Shown: in pieces, positions 13,490 to 30,541 of the stretch
How the letters are laid out: each line of letters opens with the position of its first letter
Position numbering within the stretch: position 1 is the stretch's first letter
From: Nematopogon swammerdamellus
Taxonomy: Eukaryota > Arthropoda > Insecta > Lepidoptera > Adelidae
Reading direction: 5' to 3'
NCBI GenBank assembly: GCA_946902875.1
Contig: OX336349.1
Coordinates: forward strand, 18,933,891-18,997,890
DNA: 64,000 bases
Program-made: the position numbers and the translations under genes
Notes under the pieces: model-generated
Seen by the model: the letters and a program-made list of their open reading frames with translations, nothing else
The model's database searches: none
Told to the model about the DNA's origin: nothing

Positions 13490-14128
13490 ATGATAACTAG
13501 CGTTGTAACGAGTCCAGTGATAATACTCGTGTGACTCGAGTCAAGCCTAAAACTCGTCAACTCGAGTAGGATTCGGAGCGAAACCGAGTCGGACTCGTAT
13601 TCGTACGGATAAGCAGTCAGTCAGTCAGTCTGCCCACTCGCTTCGCTCGACTCGAGTGCACGCACGCACTCGGACGACTGAATACGAATGCGAGTTGACG
13701 AACGAATACAAAATACTCGACTCGCGGCCTTGAGAGACTGACTGACGGCGGCACCGACTCGAGTCGCAGTCTCTCAAGGCCGCGAGTCGCCGAGTATTTT
13801 GTATTCGTTCGTCAACTCGCATTCGCATCGCATTCAGTCATCCGAGTGCACTCGAGTCGAGCGAGTGGGTGACGCGGTCTGCTGCTGCGAGTCAGTTGAA
13901 TTCATTTGATTGAACTGGTGACGCGCTGTACGAGATTAGTGACTTCTTAAGTCTTAAAATTATTTAAGGAGCTATTATTTAAGAATTAAATAATGGTTCC
14001 GAGACTAATAAATAGATAATCTATAGCGAGTGTTTTTGTATTCGAGTCGCTACTCGAGTTATAGATGTTTTCAACTCGAGTCACTCGAGTCGTCCATGTA
14101 TTCGACTCGTAACAAGACTAATGATAAC
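13490..14128. mobile_element. Non-autonomous hAT element (MITE) with 8-bp TSD
   Basis: Perfect direct repeats ATGATAAC (13490-13497 and 14121-14128) bracket a 623-bp element whose ends are inverted: TAGCGTTGTAACGAGTC on the left, and TAGTCTTGTTACGAGTC on the complementary strand at the right. An 8-bp TSD with TAG-starting ends fits the hAT superfamily. The interior has many ACTCGAGT motifs and a long central palindrome at about 13640-13870. There is no transposase frame. Confidence 0.9.
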
Positions 14129-20339: not shown

Positions 20340-20345
20340 CATTAG
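20340..20345. repeat. Left target site duplication CATTAG
   Basis: CATTAG immediately precedes the AGTAGTGTA terminus and is repeated exactly at 30536-30541 after TACACTACT. Confidence 0.95.
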
Positions 20346-20490
20346 AGTAGTGTAGAATTGGGCTATCTAATTCACCTCGACAAACATCATGCCGTTCAGT
20401 CTAACTCGCATCGCTTCGCTCATGCTCATTATCCTGAACACCAAGATGTTTCTGCCGAGGTGAATTAGATAACCCAATTCTACTGTATCG
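20346..20490. repeat. Left terminal inverted repeat, itself a branched palindrome
   Basis: The terminal repeat folds on itself: TAGAATTGGGCTATCTAATT at the outer side pairs with AATTAGATAACCCAATTCTA at about 20465-20484. CACCTCG...GATGTTT/CATC positions extend the stem to about 36 bp with a few bulges. The apical part holds CGTTCAG/CTGAAC and a loop with GAGCGAAGCGATGCGAG (on the complementary strand), conserved in the right end. Such a structure resembles the hairpin telomeres of parvoviruses more than the plain linear repeats of typical Polintons. Function as a replication origin or integrase end is inferred. Confidence 0.88.
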
Positions 20491-21179
20491 CTGCGGGCAA
20501 CTATGCTGATTATTTGAATAAAGTCGAGGTTAAATTCTGTTAACTTCAAATCGATAAAACTCAATTTACCTGCTGATATTCATGTATTGATAAGACTGAA
20601 TGCCGATGAGCTGCATATAGCGATTATAAATGTTTGCAATTTTTTTTTTTAGAGACGCTGTAAGTAAGGCATGCATGCTTTATAAAATATTGTATGCAAT
20701 ATTTTTTTATATTCTAAGTATTTCAAGCAATTCCCGCTTTGTCTAAAGCCCACCCGCCCGTGGAGCACTATTAAATTTCATGTAATGAATCTCTTTATCG
20801 TTTGCATGCGAGCTATTGTACATACATACTCAAATACCCCATCAAGCAGGAAATTCATCAAGCCCTCCACAACCAGACTATATTATGAAATCTTTCCTAT
20901 TTCCCTGAAATTCTCGTAGGAGGCTATATTTTTGCCAAGTTTTATATCATGAACACGTATAGTAATGGAGGTCTAATTAAAATAAAACATGTTTATTAGC
21001 AAACAAGAATATTTTATTTATTCTATTACATGAACAGCATCATAAAAACACTTGGATTAATTATAAGATACGGTTACAATTATAATGCCTTCATAGGGCA
21101 AGTACTTAGCTTATAAAAAGTATAAAAAAACAGCAGATCAAACACGCAAATACGTAAATTAATTATTTTTAAGGCGCAA
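20491..21179. other. Left non-coding segment and polyadenylation signals of the leftward transcript
   Basis: Between the left terminus and the polymerase stop I see no frame of note. On the minus strand AATAAATAAAATA (about 21009-21022) and AATAAA (20992-20997) lie 155-190 bp downstream of the polymerase stop and are the likely polyadenylation signals. Confidence 0.65.
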
Positions 21180-24100
21180 TTACAATTTATAATGCCCCCA
21201 TGGCAAAGTATTATAGCTTCTTTTCAACAATCGCCGCTTATCATCAGATCTATCGAGCACCGATTTAAAGATTTCCTGTGTGAATGCATTGTGATTAACC
21301 GATCGAATAGTATGCATTTTACGCCGAACTATCGCGCCGCTGTCAAGAGCGTGTTTGTATTCATCGCTGCGTAATTGCTTGGTAACAGATCCGGATATAC
21401 CTTTTGCTTTCTTTATAGATGAATCCGATGTTTTTATGCAGTACAGTTTAGCGCGAAGTCCTATGAACTCTGATATAACCACACCTCCCATTTCGTCTTT
21501 GAAGAGACCGGGAACTTTCATATTTACTCTAGGTATACCGTAAATATTATTGCAGGCAAAGTTGCTTGTATCAAAATTTGAAATATCGTCTTTTATATCT
21601 CTGTATATGTCATCAGTAAACACATGGTAAAGTAAACTGTCCGTATCAGTATAACATAATTTTATATTTTTACTGAACTTTTGCTTCATTACAGAGTAAT
21701 GAAAATTGTATAGATGGGCTTTCGAAAGTTCTAATACGGTAAAACCGATGTAAATTGGCCTGTCCAAAACAATTTCTTCAGGATGCAATTGAACCGCTGC
21801 TAGATTTTCTGAAAATATCGAAATGCTTTTGAAGTTAGGCATGCATACGAGTTTTTCAGCGCTTAAAATCTTGTTCGTTATATTACGATCGTCTCTCCAC
21901 GAGTTCACTAATTTCACATTAGCTTGCTTACGTTTGTTTTCGATTGTTTTTCCGAAGATAGCGTTATTCATTTTTTTTAAATTATCCTTTTCAAATTCTG
22001 ACTTGGCAACCGTGCGCAAAGAAGTGTTAAGTTCAATATACTTTTTCAGAAAGTCATCCTGCTTGAAAACGAGTGCTCTATGTACTTTTTTCAATATCAA
22101 ACCATTATTCAGACATGTCTTTAAGTGGATGTAATGAATAACATAGTTATGTTTGTGATATAAACTTGCTATGAGTTTCGAGTTAGCGCCGCCAGGCGGT
22201 GTAAGTTTTTCAGGCGCGAAAGGTAAATCCGAATGATCGTCGTGCAAATATGACGGGTATTTCAAATCAACCTCCAAATCATAGCCAATGTCGCTGTTAT
22301 CGGGGACCGAGCGAATGTCCAAGCTCGCGATTTCATTAGCGGTTAAAAATGAAAATTGGGACACCGGCATTTTCCTCATCATGGAAAAGCCATATAAGTT
22401 ATTTGAATCGAGATATATGCAAAAACTTGAGGGTAATGACTCGTCATGATCAGGCAGATACTTGTTATTAGGTTTACAATATCGCAAAGAGACCTGAGCC
22501 AATCCTCCTCGAACACCTTTCTCGAAAAATTGATAAATCTCTATATCAGAGATCAATTCAAGTTTGACTTTAGTGTGAAGTAGCATCGCATCCCAGCTCA
22601 GCCCCGGCGAGGTTACATAATAAGCCGGATCGAGCTTGTAATGTTTTAAGCTCATATTCCTAAAGTTTTCAAATATATCGCACAATAACAGAACATCGCT
22701 TTTTAAGTAAAGTTCTGTATATTGACCCAAACTTTTAACTCTAAATTGTCTCCAAACATTTACAGCATGCTCATAATCGCTTTGCGATATATCAGCCGAA
22801 GTGAGCGCGTTGTAAAAACTATCTTTTAACGGTAACTCGATTTCATCATATTTACCCCAGGAATCAACATAGTCGTATGGGAACACTCCTTTACGGCGTA
22901 TCAAGTTGAAAAGTTCGCGCTCGGGAAAGAACGACTTCAAATGTGTAAAATCTGTATCGTTAAGACTCTGAGCGAGTTTTTCAAGACTAGAATTTAAAAA
23001 TTTGAACGAATCAACAAATTTTATCTGCGCGAAATGATCTTTGCTTAGAGGGATGTATTTAGTAAATGATATATAATTTTCTTTATTTTTAGGTATAATT
23101 TTTATAACACCTGGCGTGCTGCCTAACTCTTTGATAAATAAATGGCTGTCGTAACCAGTCAAATTATGGAAGAATACAGGTACAAACGAGCATTTTTTAA
23201 ATGATAAATTGCAGCTCGAATGAGCTGGGCCTCTTAGCTCCCCAGTCATATGATCATGATCCGCTACTATGTCACCGAATAAATAACCCCCGCATATATG
23301 ACATTTTTCTGCTTCCGCTAAAAGCTTTTCCTGCTCTGAGTTCAAGGTCTTCATAGGCGTGGCTGTATGTAATATACCGTCAAGTTGAAGAACTTCTTTT
23401 GTAAGCATTTTCACGAATTTTTTCACGCAATCGCGCCCTCGATACTGGACTAGTTTATTTAATTCAGGTTTTAAAGCTGAGCATATATAAAATGCAAAAC
23501 AACTAGGCTCGTGTATTGTAGCATAACATGTCTTTTCTGTATCCCGACTCTCGTCTAAACACGGCTTCAGTATACTTTCAAAGTCAGCGTAAATAACGAA
23601 TGGAACTCTCTGCATTTTTTCCCAATTATGAAATTCTAAGAAAGTGTCTTTTGCGGGCAATATGGTTCGCACTCGAGAGCAGTCATGCCCATTAAATTTA
23701 TTTTCACTGGTAAAAGTAAGCAAGCAATCTTCACAAAGAAAGGATTTCCCATGATGCTTTGATATTTGTTTTTGAACCAAAAGACCGAGATTTGTGATCA
23801 GGCAGTAATGCGACTTCCCGCCCTTCTGTATGAACAATAAATTTATATGATTGTATTTTCTGTTTTGAGTCCTGTATAGAGGCCCGTTTACATTAGAATT
23901 TGAGGCTAACCCGTACACATTCACGCTAATGCATGGATTGCTATTTTCAAAAAATTTTATATCTTCAGAACTGGGCGGGAAATTTAGATTATATGTGTTA
24001 AGCACTGTGGAAAAGTGCGGATATGAATTAACTCTGTGTGGGTTTCTGGAAGCAGGATGTAAATGCGCTGTGATACACCACGCAAAGCAGTATTTATCGC

Positions 24101-24668
24101 TATTTTGAATATTTAAACAACTTTTATTGCGTCGAAGAGCTGGCGGCAAGGGAATGTACGATCCAGCCCTCAAAGGATTATATCTATTAATGTTTAGCTC
24201 AAGGTACGCAACATTTTTAAGTGTCCATCCGCTATCTCGATGTTCAAATTCAGAACTTTTGTGAATTAAACGTTCTACAGCATGCTTGTAAAATATCGCG
24301 ATGTTAGTACCTCTCAGTATAGCCTCATACCGCGTATTAAATGATTTCAACTCGGTTTCATCGTTTTGAGGTAGAGTAAAATGAGCAAAGAATTCCAAAT
24401 TTACTTTAAGCGATGTATGCTTCTCTAAGTGTATTTCTATAAGAGTTTTTACTTCTGATTTTACTTGCTTCAAGAATGCCTCAGGCGTGATAAGTTTTTG
24501 CGATGGTTGTATACGGTAACTGCATACTCTTTTTTTAAAAGCTGACGCGATCAGTCTCACATTACCAAATTCGGTGCTCAATAGACTATTCGTTTTATGT
24601 AAATTGCTTCTCTTATGAGCATGAAAATAGGATTTGTGAACGCTAACATTACATTTTTCACAGTACAT
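21180..24668 (-). CDS. Protein-primed family B DNA polymerase (pPolB)
   Basis: 1162 aa, uninterrupted; replicates the element using a protein primer. N-terminal C2H2-like finger (C3, C6, H18, H24) and a second Cys/His cluster at 312-330 (LCEDC...GHDC). Exonuclease motif I YADFES (360-365), an HNH/endoVII-like zinc segment CHICGG...HDHMTGELRG...CNL (456-487), exo II FHNLTGYDSH (500-509), exo III LKSDVLLL (655-662). Polymerase motif A YLDSNNLYG (752-760), motif B NNAIFGKTIENK (901-912), motif C YTDTDS (1006-1011), and KKAKGI (1086-1091). All catalytic carboxylates are present, so the enzyme looks functional. The length is normal for Polinton/bidnavirus-type pPolB. ATG 24668 is the first in frame and starts just before the finger. 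It lies 49 bp downstream of the stop of the 184-aa gene, and TTTAG in that gap could serve as an alternative splice acceptor. Confidence 0.97.
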   Translation of the reverse strand: MYCEKCNVSVHKSYFHAHKRSNLHKTNSLLSTEFGNVRLIASAFKKRVCSYRIQPSQKLITPEAFLKQVKSEVKTLIEIHLEKHTSLKVNLEFFAHFTLPQNDETELKSFNTRYEAILRGTNIAIFYKHAVERLIHKSSEFEHRDSGWTLKNVAYLELNINRYNPLRAGSYIPLPPALRRNKSCLNIQNSDKYCFAWCITAHLHPASRNPHRVNSYPHFSTVLNTYNLNFPPSSEDIKFFENSNPCISVNVYGLASNSNVNGPLYRTQNRKYNHINLLFIQKGGKSHYCLITNLGLLVQKQISKHHGKSFLCEDCLLTFTSENKFNGHDCSRVRTILPAKDTFLEFHNWEKMQRVPFVIYADFESILKPCLDESRDTEKTCYATIHEPSCFAFYICSALKPELNKLVQYRGRDCVKKFVKMLTKEVLQLDGILHTATPMKTLNSEQEKLLAEAEKCHICGGYLFGDIVADHDHMTGELRGPAHSSCNLSFKKCSFVPVFFHNLTGYDSHLFIKELGSTPGVIKIIPKNKENYISFTKYIPLSKDHFAQIKFVDSFKFLNSSLEKLAQSLNDTDFTHLKSFFPERELFNLIRRKGVFPYDYVDSWGKYDEIELPLKDSFYNALTSADISQSDYEHAVNVWRQFRVKSLGQYTELYLKSDVLLLCDIFENFRNMSLKHYKLDPAYYVTSPGLSWDAMLLHTKVKLELISDIEIYQFFEKGVRGGLAQVSLRYCKPNNKYLPDHDESLPSSFCIYLDSNNLYGFSMMRKMPVSQFSFLTANEIASLDIRSVPDNSDIGYDLEVDLKYPSYLHDDHSDLPFAPEKLTPPGGANSKLIASLYHKHNYVIHYIHLKTCLNNGLILKKVHRALVFKQDDFLKKYIELNTSLRTVAKSEFEKDNLKKMNNAIFGKTIENKRKQANVKLVNSWRDDRNITNKILSAEKLVCMPNFKSISIFSENLAAVQLHPEEIVLDRPIYIGFTVLELSKAHLYNFHYSVMKQKFSKNIKLCYTDTDSLLYHVFTDDIYRDIKDDISNFDTSNFACNNIYGIPRVNMKVPGLFKDEMGGVVISEFIGLRAKLYCIKTSDSSIKKAKGISGSVTKQLRSDEYKHALDSGAIVRRKMHTIRSVNHNAFTQEIFKSVLDRSDDKRRLLKRSYNTLPWGHYKL

Positions 24669-24717
24669 TATTAAAAGTAATCCCTAAACTGCTTCCTCAA
24701 TATTATAAATTTCTTAA

Positions 24718-25444
24718 TTACTGCTTCTTATCATAAAATTTTTTCTCTTCTTTTACAAACGACTGCAGGTGGGACCACCCAGTGGAATTTTCGGCTAAAT
24801 TCTCGCGCAGCGTTATGAGGGCATGCCTCCAGCGGTCGGCAGGCCTCACCATAGCAATGTCTTTCGAGTTGTAAATTTTTAATTCTACATAGTATTCGCC
24901 GTCCTTAACAGTCAGCTCATGCTTCGAGTATCCGCACGATGACCGACGGCTTAAAGAATTAGCGAGCAATATTTTTGGTCGCTCCTGTTTCTCACCGCCA
25001 TCCTCGCTATCGGTACCGAATAGCTGATACGCAAGCTTGTTATTAGCAACCTCACCATGCGATGGGGAGCGCTTCTTCGAGGGCCGCACGATGTCTTCCT
25101 CGCCGGACGAGTGTGTAGAACTTGGGAGAGGATTGGATCGCGATTTCTTGCTAGACGCTGACGGCCGGGCAGCTGGAGTTCTCTTTTTCTTCCGGTCAGG
25201 TATCAGAGACGACGGTGCTGCAACGTCCTCATCGGAAGATAAGAGGCTAGGCAGGCTGGCTTTCTTGCTCCTGTAAAGAAGAAATAATAGCTGCAGTGGT
25301 TTAGAATAAAAAAAGCTGTCCGCAGGACTGCGCGGCGGAAATGCTGAGCGTGACAGTTACGTGAGTTCACTTCAAAACATGCGCGGCGTTGAAGAAAAAG
25401 ATAATGTTTTCTAGATATTGTAAAATACTTCTACTTACTTACAT
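24718..25444 (-). CDS. Unrecognised 184-aa Ser/Lys-rich protein, start codon split by an intron
   Basis: The coding exon runs 25270-24718 on the minus strand and has no ATG upstream of the conserved part. A canonical acceptor (TTATTTCTTCTTTACAG) ends at 25271. An upstream exon (25518-25443) has acceptor CTTGTTTCAG and donor CAT|GTAAGTAAGT. Joining them makes an ATG from AT + G, giving 184 aa. Residues 1-75 are low complexity (SKKASLPSLLSSDEDV, runs of K/R/S), likely disordered and nuclear. Residues 80-184 are more ordered (KHELTVKDGEYYVELKIYNS, DRWRHALITLRENLAENSTG). No family recognised. A single-stranded-DNA-binding or terminal-protein role would suit its place before the polymerase, but that is a guess. 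A GTG at 25087-25089 is an unlikely alternative start. Confidence 0.6.
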
Positions 25445-25838
25445 GACTGTATCTGCTGTGCACAGCGCCGTGCTGAAGGATTTCTCGAGACCGCTTGATT
25501 TCTCTCCGACGCTCCGATCTGAAACAAGCGGGGAGGACAAGTTTTATAGCATAATTATTTACAAAGTTTCAAGAAAAGAAAATTTGCAAGTATTTGAACG
25601 AGCGCAAGAGTCAATCAATCATTACATCGCTTAAAAACATGAGACAGAGCTCTAAGTTTAAACATGCATGAAATTTTTACAAGTATTTGAAATTGTGATG
25701 CTTAAAAATTGGAAAACAGACGGGAATTGATCAAGTGTTTTATTTGAAATTTCAAAGTATTTTTTCAATTAAAAACAGTGCAAAGAGTCTGAGAATAACA
25801 AGTAAAAATTGCCCTAGTTATGAAGAGATAAAACTTAC

Positions 25839-25975
25839 CAGTCGAGTTCCTTGAGTCTCGGCGAAGGCGGGGCAGGCACTTACTTGTTCACTTTCCACTT
25901 TTCACTAGGCACTTGTACTTACTGCTTACTGCTCAACTGAATGATGCCCGGTACTAGCGCGACGTCAAATTTATA
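25839..25975 (-). promoter_or_regulatory. Core promoter and first non-coding exon of the leftward transcript
   Basis: On the minus strand TATAAA (25975-25970) is followed 33-37 bp on by CATCATTCAGTTG, an arthropod initiator-like sequence (TCATT/TCAGT, +1 near 25942-25938). The transcript then reaches a donor CTCGACTG|GTAAGT with exon end 25839. This fits a 5' UTR exon spliced to 25518 and then 25270. Confidence 0.55.
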
Positions 25976-26253
25976 CAAAAACCAACGCATAAAGCCAGAT
26001 TCACATAGGGACTGAAATCTTGCAGTAAATACAATGTTTGTATGCAACGATCCGCCCGTCTTCCATATTTCATCATCAAAACCGTGTGTGAGCATGTCTT
26101 TACAGAATAATGCAATCGGCGAATCAGCATTTTCACGGGAATTGAAATAATATTGCTTCGCAGGCGGCTTTGTACAAAGCAAGGCGCTGTGGCGCGGCGA
26201 GTGAAATTCGAAACTTCAATGCCCGGCGGCGGTGTTAATTCGTAAAAATACAT
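25919..26253 (-). other. Two overlapping open frames, unrecognised
   Basis: From 26253 one frame gives 99 aa starting MYFYELTPPPGIEVSNFTRR. A shifted frame is open from about 26210 to 25919 (KQYYFNSRENADSPIALFCK, FMRWFLYKFDVALVPGII) but has no ATG at its start. Either is a small gene, or the pair is one gene broken by a frameshift near 26180. It also contains the TATA and initiator of the leftward transcript, so coding here is doubtful. Confidence 0.3.
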
Positions 26254-26259
26254 CTATGC

Positions 26260-26756
26260 GACCGCTCTATATGAAATTTTAGGGTTCCGCACATTAAAAG
26301 GAATAAAGGAGTGCTTACAAAAAACACCTCACTGCCTGCCTGCCTGTATGCCTGTCTGTCAATAAAAAAAAAAAGCCTGTAGAGATAGTGCATGCGGTAT
26401 GTGCATATATGCATGTTATTGCACATATATTTATTGAGCATAATGTATGTTGGCTGGGAAAAATTTACTAAGGCGGTAAACCCATCCTCGCCGCATATTA
26501 AGCGGTGTAAAGCGTATTATTATATTATTAATATTATGTAAATACAAAATTATTCTCGTAATATGACTACTTTCAAATGAGAATAGATTTATGCATAATG
26601 TTTTTTTTTTTTTACTTGAATTTAAATCGTAAATTTGCTGGGAAATTAAAACTCAAGAAGTAGCTTACATATACATTTATTTATTCTTTAAATTTCATGT
26701 TTAATTTATTTATAAAAATAAAAATAAACAATAAACCTTACGATATTATGCTAACA
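26260..26756. other. Intergenic; polyadenylation signal of the 140-aa gene
   Basis: AT-rich. On the minus strand AATAAATAAATG at about 26678-26690 lies about 70 bp after the 140-aa stop and is a plausible poly(A) signal. GGGTTCCGCACATTAAAAGG near 26281 is reminiscent of the window's GGGTTCCG repeats, but only a few bases match. Confidence 0.45.
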
Positions 26757-27334
26757 CTACAGCGTGGAAAATGTACATTCTCGGGATATCTTTCTTAAAA
26801 TATTTTGAGTTAAATCCATAATTTCATTATAACCGCTTTCAACAACCACGTACTGAGACTGCACTGTTAGAACTTCAGAAGCTTCGCTCCCTACTAAATC
26901 ATACATCTGAATTTTTATTAGATGGTGTCCCCGAGCCTGCTGCGGTGTTATTATGTATGATGACGGCTGTTGTTTAACGGCAGCTTGCATCTTCTTTTTT
27001 CCCCGTCCTTGACTAGTGGACTGGCTCGCATTTTTGAAAACGCCTGTTTCGTCTATCCCATAACTCTTGAGACATCCGGCGCTCCGCTCGTTTTTTAAAA
27101 TATCATTATAAGTTTGAAGTATGAGAGGTTTTGAACTTGCATCGCGATATGTCATGGCTTCCTGATCGCGAATCTGAAAAAAACAATTAAACATTATTTT
27201 ATGTAATGCTGATTTGATGTAATGCTGGAAAACATGAAAATAGTTATTATTTATTTATTTATTTATTCTTCCTTTATCACCATAGTGAAACATGGAAATA
27301 GTTGTTATTATTATAATATGAGGCTTACCGACAT
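26757..27334 (-). CDS. Unrecognised 140-aa protein, two exons
   Basis: Exon 1 contributes ATG TCG (27334-27329), ending at the donor TCG|GTAAGC. Exon 2 starts at 27173 after the acceptor TTGTTTTTTTTCAG, and the 155-bp intron preserves the frame. The product begins MSIRDQEAMTYRDASSKPL, has a Ser/Gln/Lys-rich middle (TSQGRGKKKMQAAVKQQ), and a hydrophilic C-terminus (IIPQQ-like SSYIITPQQARGHHLIKIQM, then SGYNEIMDLTQNILRKIS). No motif recognised. The unspliced frame would start MFNCFFQ inside the intron, which the splice sites argue against. Upstream ATGs in other frames precede it in exon 1, so translation may be inefficient or the true first exon may differ. Confidence 0.55.
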
Positions 27335-27419
27335 GATGCAGGCGTGTGAAGTATTCGAAATGTAAAGCTGAAGTGCCGCGAGAGCGGAGGAGTTCGCATC
27401 GCTGCAGCCATGATAATTT

Positions 27420-27645
27420 CATCAATATTTCAAGTAAAACCTGTTCTAACATGTTTTTTTTTCATCGAGTAGCACCTGCAGATACATGGGCGAGCTTGCT
27501 AGACACGTTTCGCTGAAATCATTGCAGATGTCAAATTCGTGCTATGGAAAAATATTTCAAGTTAAGCCTGTCGCAACATGAATTTTTTTTTATTTTTCAT
27601 CGATTAGTACCTACAGTGGTGTGCACGAGCTTGCTAGACACGCAT
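27420..27645. repeat. Tandem duplication in the central control region
   Basis: ATATTTCAAGTAAAACCTGT...GCGAGCTTGCTAGACACG (27420-27503) recurs with changes at 27552-27640 (AATATTTCAAGTTAAGCCTG...CGAGCTTGCTAGACACGC). This lies between the divergent gene sets, where promoters and possibly origins would be expected. Confidence 0.7.
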
Positions 27646-27689
27646 CGTACGACGACGCAGACACGCATCGTACACATCGGTGCATTCGT

Positions 27690-27732
27690 TATAAATGTAT
27701 AAAATGTGGTGTTGATGGTTTATACGCTCAGT
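27690..27732 (+). promoter_or_regulatory. TATA + initiator promoter of the rightward genes
   Basis: TATAAAA at 27698-27704 (a second TATAAAT at 27690) and the arthropod initiator TCAGT at 27728-27732. The +1 A at 27730 lies 32 bp from the TATA start, the canonical spacing. The first ATG (27776) follows after a 46-nt leader. Confidence 0.75.
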
Positions 27733-27775
27733 AACATTCAAACTTTCGCAGCAATTATTTTTGAGGCTTGCTAAA

Positions 27776-28111
27776 ATGAATATTGATAAATTCGGCCAGC
27801 ATGTGCACAAAAGACTTAGGCTTTCTGAGCTTCAACGTGATCATATAGATTCATGCTTTCATAGAACTGGAGATGCCAATATTGATGCACGATCATCAAG
27901 ATTGACAGGGCTTCTGCCCCCCCGAAAGAATCAAATGATGCTGTTACAAAATCTTAAGGAATTTTGCAGCAAAAAACAGTTAAGCGATAGCTTTCATCGA
28001 TTTCAAGCTGATATAAAACACGATATTGAATTGCTAAAATCTCATTTTGAGCGAAAGATCTATACTAAAGCAGACGTTCATAGCCTTGAAGGAGAAAATA
28101 AATCTTCATAA
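27776..28111 (+). CDS. Small 111-aa protein preceding the integrase
   Basis: Begins MNIDKFGQHVHKRLRLSELQ and continues RDHIDSCFHRTGDANIDARS, SRLTGLLPPRKNQMM, then a helical, charged C-terminus (FHRFQADIKHDIELLKSHFE). ATG 27776 is the first after the predicted transcription start. From memory, small frames starting in a similar DKFGxHVHKR way occur in insect Polinton-like elements and related virus-like proteins, but the function is unknown to me. The stop overlaps the integrase start (TAATG), so both proteins probably come from one mRNA. Confidence 0.7.
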   Translation: MNIDKFGQHVHKRLRLSELQRDHIDSCFHRTGDANIDARSSRLTGLLPPRKNQMMLLQNLKEFCSKKQLSDSFHRFQADIKHDIELLKSHFERKIYTKADVHSLEGENKSS

Positions 28112-29035
28112 TGGAGGCTGTTGTCAAAGAAATTCATAAACCCGCTCGTAGAAATTTTCCGAGGCGAATAGTAGAGCTTCGAGGCATAGACGATTTATGG
28201 CAAGCAGATCTGGCTGAGATGAGAAGTTTTCAACGGTATAACAGAGGATATAAATTAATACTAGTTGTAATTGACGGATTTTCGAAATTCGCATGGGCAG
28301 TTCCTGTGAAGACAAAAAATAAAGAGGATATTTGTAATGCGATGGAGGTAATTTTAAAAAAGGGGAGAAAACCCGCACACCTGCAGACCGATCACGGGAA
28401 AGAATTTTACAATGAAAAATTTAAAAAATGTATGGTGAAACAATCTATTAATCATTATTCAACATATTCTATCAAGAAAGCTTCGATCGTTGAACGTTTT
28501 ATAAGAACGCTAAAAACCCGATTGTATAAAACATTCAGTTTAAATGGTAACTATAAATGGGTTGGAAAACCACTTGCAAATATAATGACTAATTACAATA
28601 ATACAGTGCACAGCACCACGCGTTTTAAACCTGCAAATGTGAGTAATTATAACGCGGCTGCTGTTCATGCAAATATTGAAAAAGTAGAAAAAAATATGCA
28701 AACGCGCTGCTACCCCGAAATTTAAAATAGGTGATCATGTCCGTATAAGCAAATACAAAGGAGCTTTTGCCAAGGGATATAATCCGAATTGGTCAACTGA
28801 ACTGTTTAAAATAGCTAAAATAAAAACAATGAGGCCTGCCTCGTATATATTAAGCGATATGCACGGCCAAATTATATCAGGATGTTTTTATGAGCAAGAA
28901 CTGATGAAAACAAGATATCCAGATATTTACCTGGTTGAAAAAGTTTTAAAAAGAAATGGGGGAAAAGTGTTTGTAAAATGGCTGGGTCTTCCCGCGTCTG
29001 AAAATAGCTGGATAGATGCTGATAACAAGGTATAA
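28111..29035 (+). pseudogene. Retrovirus-type integrase with chromodomain, one frameshift
   Basis: The first 204 codons (28111-28725) hold the catalytic core: D33 (DLWQADLAEM), D94 (LQTDHGKEFYN) and E128 (KKASIVERFIRTLK). The start MEAVVKEIHKPARRNFPRR is typical of insect Polinton integrases. The frame ends prematurely at 28725. In the next frame, from about 28712, the protein plainly continues with an SH3-like segment (KIGDHVRISKYKGAFAKGY) and a chromodomain (YLVEKVLKRNGGKVFVKWLG...NSWIDADNK) to 29035. A one-base insertion-type shift near 28700-28712 therefore separates catalytic and C-terminal domains. It could be a mutation of this copy or an assembly error. The enzyme joins element ends to target DNA with 6-bp staggering. 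Confidence 0.9.
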
Positions 29036-29088
29036 TTAGTTATAAAAAACTTGAAACGCTTGCTAAAACCTTCATTTGATGTTAAGTG

Positions 29089-29838
29089 ATGAAAGGGGAG
29101 GGAATAGTCGATACATTGATAAATAATTTACCTTTTGAAATTCATCTGCCTGGCTATAATTATTGCGGCCCGGGGACACGTTTAAATAAAAGACTGCAGC
29201 GAGGTGATACGGGGGTTAATCAATTGGACGATTACTGTCGAGAACACGATATAGAATATATGAAATCAAAAAATTTGGGCGTTAGACGTATAGCTGATTT
29301 AAAATTGATGGATAGAGCGGGGAAACGTTCAAAGTGTGCTGATGCAGGGAGAGGAGAAAAAATCGCTTCATGGCTGGTGAAAAATATTATGAAGGCGAAA
29401 GTGAAAGCGGGGGCCGGTGTAAAGAAAAAAATAAAAACGTTTAAGACAGCGATAAAAAAAATTAAGACTAAATTAGGAAAAATTAAATCCAAAAGCAATA
29501 AAACTATTATTCGTCGGGCGCTTGCTTTTGCAAAAAAGATTATTCCGAGGAATGCATGCATTCCATTGCCTAGAGTAATACCAATTCCAAAAACAGGTGG
29601 TATATTACCGCTTATACCAATTTTTGCAGGCCTATCTGCTTTAGGCAGCTTGGCTGGAGGGGCTGCTGGAATCGCTAAAGCCGTGAATGATTACAAAATA
29701 GCTAGAGAAGATTTGAAAGAAGCACATCGTCATAATAGCGCCATGGAATCCATCGCTATAGGACATGGTTTATATCTCAAACATTATAAAAATGGAGCTG
29801 GACTCAAACGATCGCCATTCTACCTACAGCAGTCATAA
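29089..29838 (+). CDS. Phospholipase A2 domain fused to a core-protein-X/mu-like segment
   Basis: 249 aa from ATG 29089. The N-terminus carries a parvovirus-type PLA2 site: calcium loop YNYCGPGTRLN (residues 23-33) and catalytic pair CREHDIEY (H53, D54). PLA2 domains of this kind help virions breach endosomes, so a virion component is likely. Residues about 100-155 are strongly basic (VKKKIKTFKTAIKKIKTKLG), suited to DNA binding. Residues 160-200 have PRVIPIPKTGGILPLIPIFA followed by a Gly/Ala-rich hydrophobic run. This pattern resembles the membrane-active C-terminus of adenovirus-type core protein X, as described for adintovirus-like elements. The tail ends HGLYLKHYKNGAGLKRSPFY. Intact frame, about 50 bp after the integrase stop. 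Confidence 0.88.
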   Translation: MKGEGIVDTLINNLPFEIHLPGYNYCGPGTRLNKRLQRGDTGVNQLDDYCREHDIEYMKSKNLGVRRIADLKLMDRAGKRSKCADAGRGEKIASWLVKNIMKAKVKAGAGVKKKIKTFKTAIKKIKTKLGKIKSKSNKTIIRRALAFAKKIIPRNACIPLPRVIPIPKTGGILPLIPIFAGLSALGSLAGGAAGIAKAVNDYKIAREDLKEAHRHNSAMESIAIGHGLYLKHYKNGAGLKRSPFYLQQS

Positions 29839-29842
29839 GAAT

Positions 29843-30404
29843 CGAATGCGATATTGTGAATGGCTCTTTTATAAACGGGAAACCATCGCATCGTATCTTC
29901 ATATCGATTGTGAAAACTGTAATCTATTTAGCACCTAAACATTACCATTCTGCCATCGGCATTCAGTTTACCGATCAAAAAGCGATTTTAACCGGCATTC
30001 AGTTTACCGATCAAAAAGCGATTTATAAACGGGAAACCATCGCATCGTATCTTCATATCGATTGCTGTGAAAACTGTAATCTATTTAGCACCTAAACATT
30101 ACCATTCTGCCATCGGCATTCAGTTTACCGATCAAAAAGCGATTTTAACCGGCATTCAGTTTACCGATCAAAAAGCGATTTATAAACGGGAAACCATCGC
30201 ATCGTATCTTCATATCGATTGCTGTGAAAACTGTAATCTATTTAGCACCTAAACATTACCATTCTGCCATCGGCATTCAGTTTACCGATCAAAAAGCGAT
30301 TTTAACCGGCATTCAGTTTACCGATCAAAAAGCGATTTTAACGCTCAAAGAGCTCTGCAATGCAAACGATCTGCACCTGCATCGCAGACGTAGTTTATAA
30401 TTGG
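29843..30404 (+). repeat. Tandem 154-157-bp repeats near the right terminus
   Basis: Units start with TTTATAAACGGGAAACCATC at 29868, 30022 and 30179. The first lacks GCT, giving 154 bp against 157. Each contains one or two copies of the 36-bp ACCGGCATTCAGTTTACCGA... block. After the last unit the frame ILTLKELCNANDLHLHRRRS runs to a stop, so the repeats may have grown inside a small former gene. The 157-bp period is not a multiple of three, so it is no longer coding throughout. Confidence 0.85.
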
Positions 30405-30535
30405 GCTGTTTGATTTCACCTCGACAGACAGATCGAGCTGTTTGAATCATGAGTATGAGCGAAGCGAATGCGATTATGATTGAGCAGCTCGATGTTTCTG
30501 ACGAGGTGAATCAAACAGCCCAATTATACACTACT
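30391..30535. repeat. Right terminal inverted repeat, itself a branched palindrome
   Basis: ATAATTGGGCTGTTTGATTT pairs with AATCAAACAGCCCAATTAT at 30509-30527. An inner stem ATCGAGCTG/CAGCTCGAT plus AATCAT/ATGATT closes a loop with GAGCGAAGCGAATGCG. Compared with the left end, stem bases differ in pairs that preserve pairing. Confidence 0.88.
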
Positions 30536-30541
30536 CATTAG
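30536..30541. repeat. Right target site duplication CATTAG
   Basis: Exact copy of 20340-20345. Confidence 0.95.

Follow-up and report, generated by a model that had tools for sequence, protein, structure and literature searches.

How are the ends of a mobile element copied and kept when each end is a palindrome and the two palindromes differ from one another? The question is raised by a Maverick/Polinton at positions 20346–30535 of the window (the whole 64,000-nt stretch of Nematopogon swammerdamellus DNA analysed here), with both palindromes lying exactly at its first and last bases. To our knowledge, the copying of Maverick ends has been inferred but never demonstrated. A preliminary description of this DNA had placed the element correctly to the base and had read its ends as branched, parvovirus-type hairpins alongside a protein-primed polymerase. 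Our analysis indicates that the element is a recently active Maverick (Polinton, polintovirus), probably one that is protein-primed and in which each of the diverged ends forms its own hairpin, not a joint panhandle.

The Element and Its Genes

Two membership features of Mavericks are found at the termini of the window copy, a perfect 6-bp target-site duplication (CATTAG) and the motif (AGT)2//(ACT)2 (Table 1). A third is an integrase with a chromodomain, which we scored as present with a Chromo match of 24.1 bits against a Pfam cut-off of 25.1, i.e., 1 bit short; a frame disruption in the window copy leaves core and chromodomain in separate frames. The fourth is the polymerase, whose predicted fold matches phi29 polymerase best, so that, as modelled, it is a family B polymerase of the protein-primed type, in agreement with what the preliminary description had proposed to lie between the palindromic ends. 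A profile search of PDB sequences returned zinc fingers only, and no priming residue was identified. We considered the Endonuclease VII-like stretch of PolB as a hairpin resolvase and set this aside as an idea only, the stretch being present in the PolB of the Spodoptera frugiperda (Sf) Mavericks too; homing-endonuclease inserts are mentioned for polinton polymerases in the accessible parts of the literature. The phospholipase A2-like protein has 2061 homologues at E ≤ 0.001.

Table 1. Features of the window copy and its flanks, in window coordinates.
Feature	Coordinates	Strand	Remarks
Target-site duplication CATTAG, left copy	20340..20345	+	
Left terminal (AGT)2	20346..20351	+	Motif as in vertebrate Mavericks (PMC8097293, accessible text)
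Left terminal hairpin, unbranched, bulged	20352..20483	+	DNA fold z −11.6 / −13.4
Family B DNA polymerase (PolB), 1162 aa, frame open	21180..24668	-	Endonuclease_7-like stretch, residues 448–492
123-aa ORF, function unknown	24718..25089	-	Without Pfam match
145-aa ORF, function unknown	26757..27194	-	Without Pfam match
Integrase core (rve)	28111..28725	+	Pfam rve, E 1.4e-11
Integrase chromodomain part, different reading frame	28829..29035	+	Pfam Chromo, E 3.5e-5
Phospholipase A2-like protein, 250 aa ("CAP" in Sf Mavericks)	29086..29838	+	Pfam Phospholip_A2_4, E 2e-12
Tandem array of ~157-bp units, unit number differing among copies	29868..30338	+	
Right terminal hairpin, unbranched	30390..30534	+	DNA fold z −14.8 / −13.7
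Right terminal (ACT)2	30530..30535	+	
Target-site duplication CATTAG, right copy	30536..30541	+	

The window copy is an internally shortened Maverick. Besides PolB, the integrase, and the phospholipase it holds no ORF of 170 aa or more; neither a double jelly-roll capsid protein nor an adenovirus-type protease was seen in it, and its stop-free frames of at least 55 residues between 24.6 and 28.2 kb contain no P-loop pattern of a packaging ATPase. In stretches of two long-copy loci, by contrast with the window copy, we found the coding sequence of a double jelly-roll protein (E 1.7e-87), as well as a frame that matches the adenovirus protease weakly (E 0.0055, below cut-off). None of the seven ORFs of the window copy had a Pfam match to Rep/NS1, and no parvovirus-type SF3 helicase or single jelly-roll capsid protein was matched in the ORFs scanned, which cover the long copies in part.

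Copies of the Family

The family comprises dozens of near-identical copies in this genome and is very young. With an end query we scored 40 left ends of 115 candidates (the window copy and 39 others), and with an interior query (20500–20800), which does not choose copies by their ends, 40 of 58 candidates; 34 of the latter were already in the end-query set and 6 were new, giving at least 46 left ends in total. Two copies, L026 and L028, have one flank in common and are probably a single duplicated insertion. Right ends with both duplications were located in 33 of the first 39 copies (28 and 5 more), and the 6-bp duplication is perfect in all 33. The 6 new copies lie outside this count, as do L028, which was left out, L031, which is cut at the end of its stretch with its hairpin nonetheless visible, and L029, L037, L040, and L046, in which no right end was found. 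The 11 right stretches at first unlocated (9 copies) contained no right hairpin in either orientation; in five of these 9 copies the right end was then located further out. Four long copies (13.1–15.2 kb) carry the same right hairpin.

The right hairpin is identical over 151 of 151 nt in 31 of the 33 copies, so the difference between the left and the right hairpin is a stable one. Of the first 40 left ends, 20 show identity over 145 nt. Left and right end sequences diverge by 20–23% despite these identities among copies, and PolB retains 1162 open codons, whereas none of 400 frames stayed open when neutral change was simulated at 0.10 changes per site (stops only). Thus, the divergence between the left and right stretches predates the insertion of the copies.

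Among the first 40 left ends, one group variant (C96G) strengthens the fold and another (A35C with an extra T) is approximately neutral. Six variants are private, of which four weaken the fold by 2–4 kcal/mol, one weakens it by 0.5, and one strengthens it. A double change common to two left ends also weakens the fold (−34.5 versus −40.4), so pair-breaking variants are not solely private.

Folding of the Two Ends

Folded with DNA parameters, the four strands of both ends reach −37.9 to −48.6 kcal/mol (z −11.6 to −14.8), and for each strand 0 of 200 shuffles folded as well. All four minimum-energy structures are single long interrupted hairpins; the ends are therefore palindromes, as had been described, but they are not branched. 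The stems quoted in that description do pair, although a C·A mismatch at position 18 of the left stem, visible in the letters quoted, had been passed over in the text. Ranked by RNA energy among 2554 windows of 150 nt, the right end takes place 13 and the left end place 38. The window is repeat-rich and strong folds are common in it, and the argument accordingly rests on the position of the hairpins, the duplications, and a second family (see below). The motif GAGCGAAGCGA occurs in both hairpins, as had been noted, and once more in an unrelated palindrome at 13638; this palindrome (13.6–13.9 kb) was rejected as a relative of the ends, since it has GAGCGAAGCGA in common with them and not the end sequences.

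We compared the two ends pair by pair. On the left-end structure, 37 of 51 aligned pairs are identical, 5 are changed on both sides with pairing kept, and in 9 a change on one side alone has abolished the pair in one of the ends. For the right-end structure (50 pairs) the corresponding numbers are 35, 5, and 8, the rest being one single change with pairing kept and one double change without pairing. In the outer stem, over 26 columns paired in both ends, four differences in the outer arm and four in the inner arm fall on the same four pairs, a coincidence with a chance of about 1 in 15,000 by counting. Compensatory change is thus genuine but less extensive than had been proposed: it is complete in the outer stem (4 of 4), while in the hairpin as a whole 5 compensated pairs stand against 9 that are not.

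With loop cost excluded and DNA parameters throughout, the two hairpins apart sum to −87.1 and −92.3, as against −80.1 and −84.5 for the panhandle, so that hairpins are favoured by only about 7–8 kcal/mol; were the ends identical, the panhandle would reach about −191 to −194.

A Second Family in the Same Genome

A second family encodes a PolB that is 62.6% identical to that of the window; of the 835 bp that separate end and PolB in the window copy, convincing alignment is confined to the outermost 24 nt (PolB-side end). We located its near (PolB-side) end in 10 of 12 cases and its far end in 10 of 10. Both ends carry hairpins of about 63 nt (z −9.4 and −8.8 at the near end, −7.1 and −7.7 at the far end), and neither the inner hairpin sequences nor the hairpin length is conserved between the two families. 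The near ends contain a compensated pair, G-C or T-A, split 7 versus 3 of 10, whereas the far ends contain an uncompensated mismatch (A·C or T·C). Duplications are perfect in 8 of 10 copies and in one more when its terminus is read as (AGT)3, this end having a third AGT with the duplication CCAGCA on either side; the remaining copy shows a single difference. One of the 10 far ends lacks the loop and inner arm, yet its duplication is perfect.

Pairing has been kept through change both between the two ends and between copy groups of the second family, which favours a hairpin that really forms. The preliminary description's argument for selection on, or copying through, a folded hairpin draws support from this, but it is weakened by the nine uncompensated pairs, the shared variants that are uncompensated, the far-end mismatch of the second family, and the far end without a hairpin. 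Such uncompensated differences, some of them common to several copies, would be expected if the palindromes were passive, having arisen by fold-back copying of a broken end and being kept by arm-to-arm correction alone with no benefit, and the variation of hairpin length and inner sequence between families fits the same account. We nevertheless regard passivity as very unlikely, because both families have a hairpin at either end although, from left end to PolB, their sequences align over no more than the outer 24 nt; that C96G strengthens the fold and four of six private variants weaken it also speaks against it, a point offset by the weakening variant common to two copies.

A Proposed Mechanism for the Ends

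Protein priming is suggested by the predicted polymerase fold, the AGT termini, and the single end with (AGT)3. In our model, the polymerase would use a protein primer to initiate on the AGT repeats, where it could slip by one AGT unit, and strand displacement would release a complete single strand. As the ends match over only about 77%, each would then fold on itself instead of joining in a panhandle. The folded end may re-create a duplex terminus recognisable to the polymerase or the integrase and may shield the free DNA end; the complementarity of the arms would be largely maintained by selection, or by one arm correcting the other while folded. These functions of the hairpin are inferred.

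The hairpins begin immediately inward of the site cut by the integrase, and their form is retained in two families with unrelated inner sequences. They could therefore serve to bind the integrase or the packaging machinery, or be part of a transcript, with no role in end copying. We consider this unlikely, though less so than passivity; the second-family copy with a collapsed hairpin has a perfect duplication, which counts against it provided that the loss preceded insertion.

Parvoviridae with two different ends have unlike terminal hairpins and a phospholipase A2 domain, and some parvovirus ends keep one orientation. The element resembles them in both its terminal hairpins and its phospholipase A2 domain, the latter as in parvovirus VP1, and its ends are strong, unlike hairpins with compensated changes. 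Replication of the parvovirus type, in which a 3′ hairpin self-primes, nicking resolves and inverts the end (flip/flop), and the cycle maintains the palindrome, is on these grounds conceivable but highly improbable. The hairpins are unbranched, none of the scanned ORFs matched Rep/NS1, and further long ORFs are absent from the window copy. The termini are AGT repeats, one of them (AGT)3, in the manner of Mavericks, with integrase-type 6-bp duplications. Flip/flop orientations, for which the preliminary description had proposed to look, were sought, and inverted ends numbered 0 of 40 on the left (interior-query sample) and 0 of 33 on the right, where ends had been found by their own sequence. 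The element further differs from Parvoviridae in having an integrase and, in a long copy, a double jelly-roll protein.

Relation to Known Elements and Significance

The closest described parallels are Sf Maverick 1 and 2 (PMC5803895, accessible text), which likewise encode a 1162-aa PolB, an integrase with a chromodomain, and a parvovirus-VP1-like phospholipase A2 protein, and also a protease; in Sf Maverick 2 PolB lies on the opposite strand, as here. The window copy differs in lacking protease and capsid genes, which are represented in the long-copy stretches, the protease by its weak match. Terminal repeats of the Sf Mavericks are not described in the accessible text of that paper. Vertebrate Mavericks (PMC8097293, main text) share the motif 5′-(AGT)2//(ACT)2-3′ and 6-bp target duplications with this element but have terminal repeats of 46–1447 bp, and that main text does not mention hairpin or palindromic ends. 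Bidnaviridae, according to the accessible text of PMC4061559, also have a polinton-type protein-primed PolB and mix parvovirus-like with polinton-like features; their terminal repeats do not form parvovirus hairpins, so the present element, a polinton with hairpin ends, shows the reverse combination.

Our scan of viral_contigs (PolB, PLA2 alignment, PolB alignment, end pattern) yielded one distant relative, L001, and that of genome_contigs nine contigs of prokaryote MAGs with a distant PolB. Palindromes like these ends were found in 0 of these 10 contigs, many of which may stop short of the element end. In L005, PolB is followed by an AT-rich array with inverted similarity, which looks like direct repeats. 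Hairpin ends of a Maverick are not described in the accessible portions of PMC4061559, PMC11071296, PMC11071308, PMC6431247, PMC8363768, PMC5803895, PMC8097293, PMC2836005, PMC10675110, and PMC4028283, a set of open papers that leaves most subscription literature outside its scope. Hairpin ends are not usually linked with the Maverick class.

The copying of Maverick ends can be tested in a young multi-copy family such as this, with self-complementary ends that differ stably: under panhandle repair the two ends should grow alike, and here they stay unlike. Hairpin ends and a parvovirus-like phospholipase in a polinton also bear on the proposed origin of bidnaviruses from a parvovirus and a polinton. 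More tentatively, and with the odds in our view against it, an insect polintovirus clade may have traded the adenovirus-type panhandle for two independent hairpins, combining protein-primed tips with parvovirus-like folded termini. If so, it would represent the sort of intermediate by which protein-primed elements could be connected with the origin of parvovirus-polinton hybrids.

Each End of the Element Is Predicted to Fold into Its Own Hairpin

Palindromes were found at both ends of the Maverick/Polinton element, where the preliminary description had placed them; it had called them branched, but each of the four strands, folded as single-stranded DNA, forms a single long interrupted hairpin. 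The folds have z-scores of −11.6, −13.4, −14.8 and −13.7, and none of 200 shuffles of any strand folded as well. Ranked by RNA energies among 2554 windows within the whole window, the right end comes 13th and the left end (the PolB side) 38th; strong folds are not rare in this repeat-rich DNA, so fold energy alone is not convincing for hairpin ends.

Features of the window and of the element within it
Feature	Position	Strand	Remarks
Best-folding stretch of the window	13600–13880		−108 kcal/mol; unrelated palindrome also bearing GAGCGAAGCGA
Family-1 element (window copy)	20346–30535		10,190 bp
Interior stretch used as query	20500–20800		
PolB (family B DNA polymerase)	21180–24668	−	
Tandem array, ~157-bp units	29868–30338		Near right end; unit number varies among otherwise near-identical copies (also fetched stretches L058–L077)
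Inverted repeat, 916 bp, 97% identity	44043–48115		Around retrotransposon-like reading frames

Read outside-in, the two ends align with 77% identity (142 columns; outer arms 80%, inner arms 70%); the two arms of one end are 77% (left) or 74% (right) identical. The left/right differences had been described as compensated, which is true of part of them: among 51 pairs comparable on the left end's structure, 37 are identical, 5 are doubly changed with pairing kept, and 9 are changed on one side, the pair being lost in one end. In the outer stem, which has 26 columns paired in the left and right end alike, the four outer-arm and four inner-arm differences fall on the same four pairs, a coincidence with a chance of about 1/15,000 (one in 26-choose-4) if they were placed independently.

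With DNA parameters, the separate hairpins of one strand's two ends reach −87.1 (top) and −92.3 (bottom) kcal/mol, versus −80.1 and −84.5 kcal/mol for the best duplex between the ends, and co-folding both ends gives 104 and 111 pairs that stay within an end, against 6 and 1 that join the two. A panhandle of hypothetical equal ends would reach about −191 to −194 kcal/mol. Hairpins are thus favoured because the ends have diverged, by a small margin in which the energy needed to close a 10-kb loop is not included.

Hairpins in Recently Amplified Copies

Searching the genome (699 Mb, 39 contigs) with the left end gave 115 candidates, and all 40 that were scored match at 99–100% identity. The flank boundary lies exactly at AGTAGTGTA in each of the 39 other copies fetched, and their flanks are mutually different except for one pair, L026 and L028, which share a flank 1.9 Mb apart on contig G000:C21 and reflect a segment duplicated either in the genome or in the assembly. 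In 33 of these 39 copies the right end could be located; the 6-bp duplications are perfect in all 33, and 31 of their right hairpins match that of the window at all 151 nt. Such near-identical hairpins and perfect duplications show that the amplification happened very recently and that the left hairpin and the right hairpin, distinct in sequence, remain distinct.

Of the 40 left hairpins, 20 agree at all 145 nt, 11 have C96G, 3 have A35C together with one additional T, and the other 6 are each a single variant. C96G, which strengthens the window's fold (−40.4 vs −37.9), lies in one of its interior loops; measured against their own class fold, four of the private variants weaken it by 2–4 kcal/mol and one by 0.5, and one strengthens it. 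Because these ends had been found by their own sequence, left ends were also sought through the interior stretch (58 candidates, 40 scored, 34 already in the first sample). All six further copies have the hairpin; in two of them a common double change makes the fold weaker (−34.5), as do two private changes in another (−35.2). That the palindromes are passive is a reading to which we give little weight.

The interior-stretch sample also bears on rolling-hairpin replication of the parvovirus type, under which flip and flop orientations would be expected. A single orientation was found in 40 of 40 left ends, the six new ones being 98–99% identical to the window's hairpin and 77–78% to its inverse; no inverted right end occurs among 33, a sample found by the right-end sequence itself. 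Rolling-hairpin replication is considered quite improbable.

Long and Short Copies

Five copies measure 11.6, 13.1, 14.0, 14.1 and 15.2 kb; their right hairpins are identical and their duplications perfect. The remaining 28 with a right end span 10.2 to 11.8 kb. In stretches of two long copies the reading frames include one for a double jelly-roll protein (E = 1.7e-87), one that weakly matches adenovirus protease (E = 0.0055, below cut-off) and two more without a match. The double jelly-roll and protease-like frames are absent from the window copy, which is a shortened derivative that probably moves with the help of long copies.

A Second Family with Hairpin Ends

A search of the same genome with a related PolB (P0193) gave 370 candidates; 24 of the 39 scored belong to a second, related Maverick family (family 2), and 20 of the 24 are stop-free. 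This PolB shares 62.6% identity with that of the window, and across the window's 835 bp from left end to PolB the only convincing alignment with family 2 is over the outermost 24 nt. Near (PolB-side) ends were located in 10 of 12 fetched stretches, all starting with AGTAGTGTATAATTGGGC and all carrying a palindrome of ~63 nt in one of two versions (z = −9.4 and −8.8). The versions differ in one pair, G-C in seven copies and T-A in three, a compensated difference that is fixed between these two groups.

All ten far (opposite) ends could be placed (the two versions that were folded have z = −7.1 and −7.7). At the corresponding position they are mismatched, A.C in seven copies and T.C in two, so the outer arm changed there and its partner did not. 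In one near end, L118, a private change breaks a pair; the far end of that copy (L128, contig G000:C14) has T in the outer arm and has lost loop and inner arm, its duplication being perfect. There the outer arm is joined to sequence beside the inner arm's end, as though the fold had been skipped.

Duplications are perfect in eight of the ten copies, and one (L111/L124) differs at one of six bases. The ninth copy (near end L109, contig G000:C9; far end L120) is flanked by CCAGCA on both sides and starts with (AGT)3 instead of (AGT)2. One extra terminal trinucleotide is the outcome expected from sliding-back in protein-primed initiation, a mechanism known for phi29 and adenovirus, and by this analogy the third AGT may be its natural trace; no third AGT occurs among 39 family-1 left ends. 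Two family-2 copies measured ~16.2 and 16.5 kb.

Relationship to Known Systems and Proposed Replication

By the features tested, the element is a Maverick/Polinton. The preliminary description had likened the ends, next to a protein-primed polymerase, to those of parvoviruses. The element shares with parvoviruses two different terminal hairpins and a phospholipase A2 domain; unlike them, it has no Rep among the ORFs scanned and no inverted left end. Bidnaviruses, proposed parvovirus-polinton hybrids, are stated to form no such hairpins (PMC4061559). In the literature searched, which did not extend to the original Maverick descriptions, neither Mavericks nor adintoviruses are described as having hairpin ends. 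Nine contigs (L002–L010) that were assigned to bacterial and archaeal MAGs encode PolB related to these elements and are probably misbinned.

Given the 20–23% left/right divergence, ends equal at insertion would imply ~0.12–0.14 changes per site in each. In a neutral simulation scoring stops only, 0 of 400 PolB frames stayed open at 0.10, 4% at 0.02 and about one in five at 0.01. The real frame is open in the window copy and compared stretches differ by ~0–2% between copies; the unlike ends thus belong to the replicating element and were already unlike before insertion.

It is established that the element ends in AGT repeats, that its unlike ends can form hairpins, that its duplications are of the integrase type and that it amplified recently; the polymerase has a predicted fold of the protein-primed type. 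We consider it fairly probable that initiation would be protein-primed at the AGT repeats, that each end of the displaced strand would fold and serve as the restored terminus, and that arm pairing would be maintained through selection or arm-to-arm correction. A hairpin role confined to integration or packaging seems unlikely. The evidence from the interior-stretch sample cuts both ways, with a stronger flip/flop negative on one side and an extra shared uncompensated variant on the other, and leaves the standing of these explanations unchanged. PolB residues 448–492 match Endonuclease_7, as listed for many relatives too; this family includes Holliday-junction resolvases, and the segment is a candidate for acting on folded ends.

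Ends that are unlike are not predicted if equal terminal repeats pair as a panhandle for repair; the panhandle model is the one established for adenovirus.
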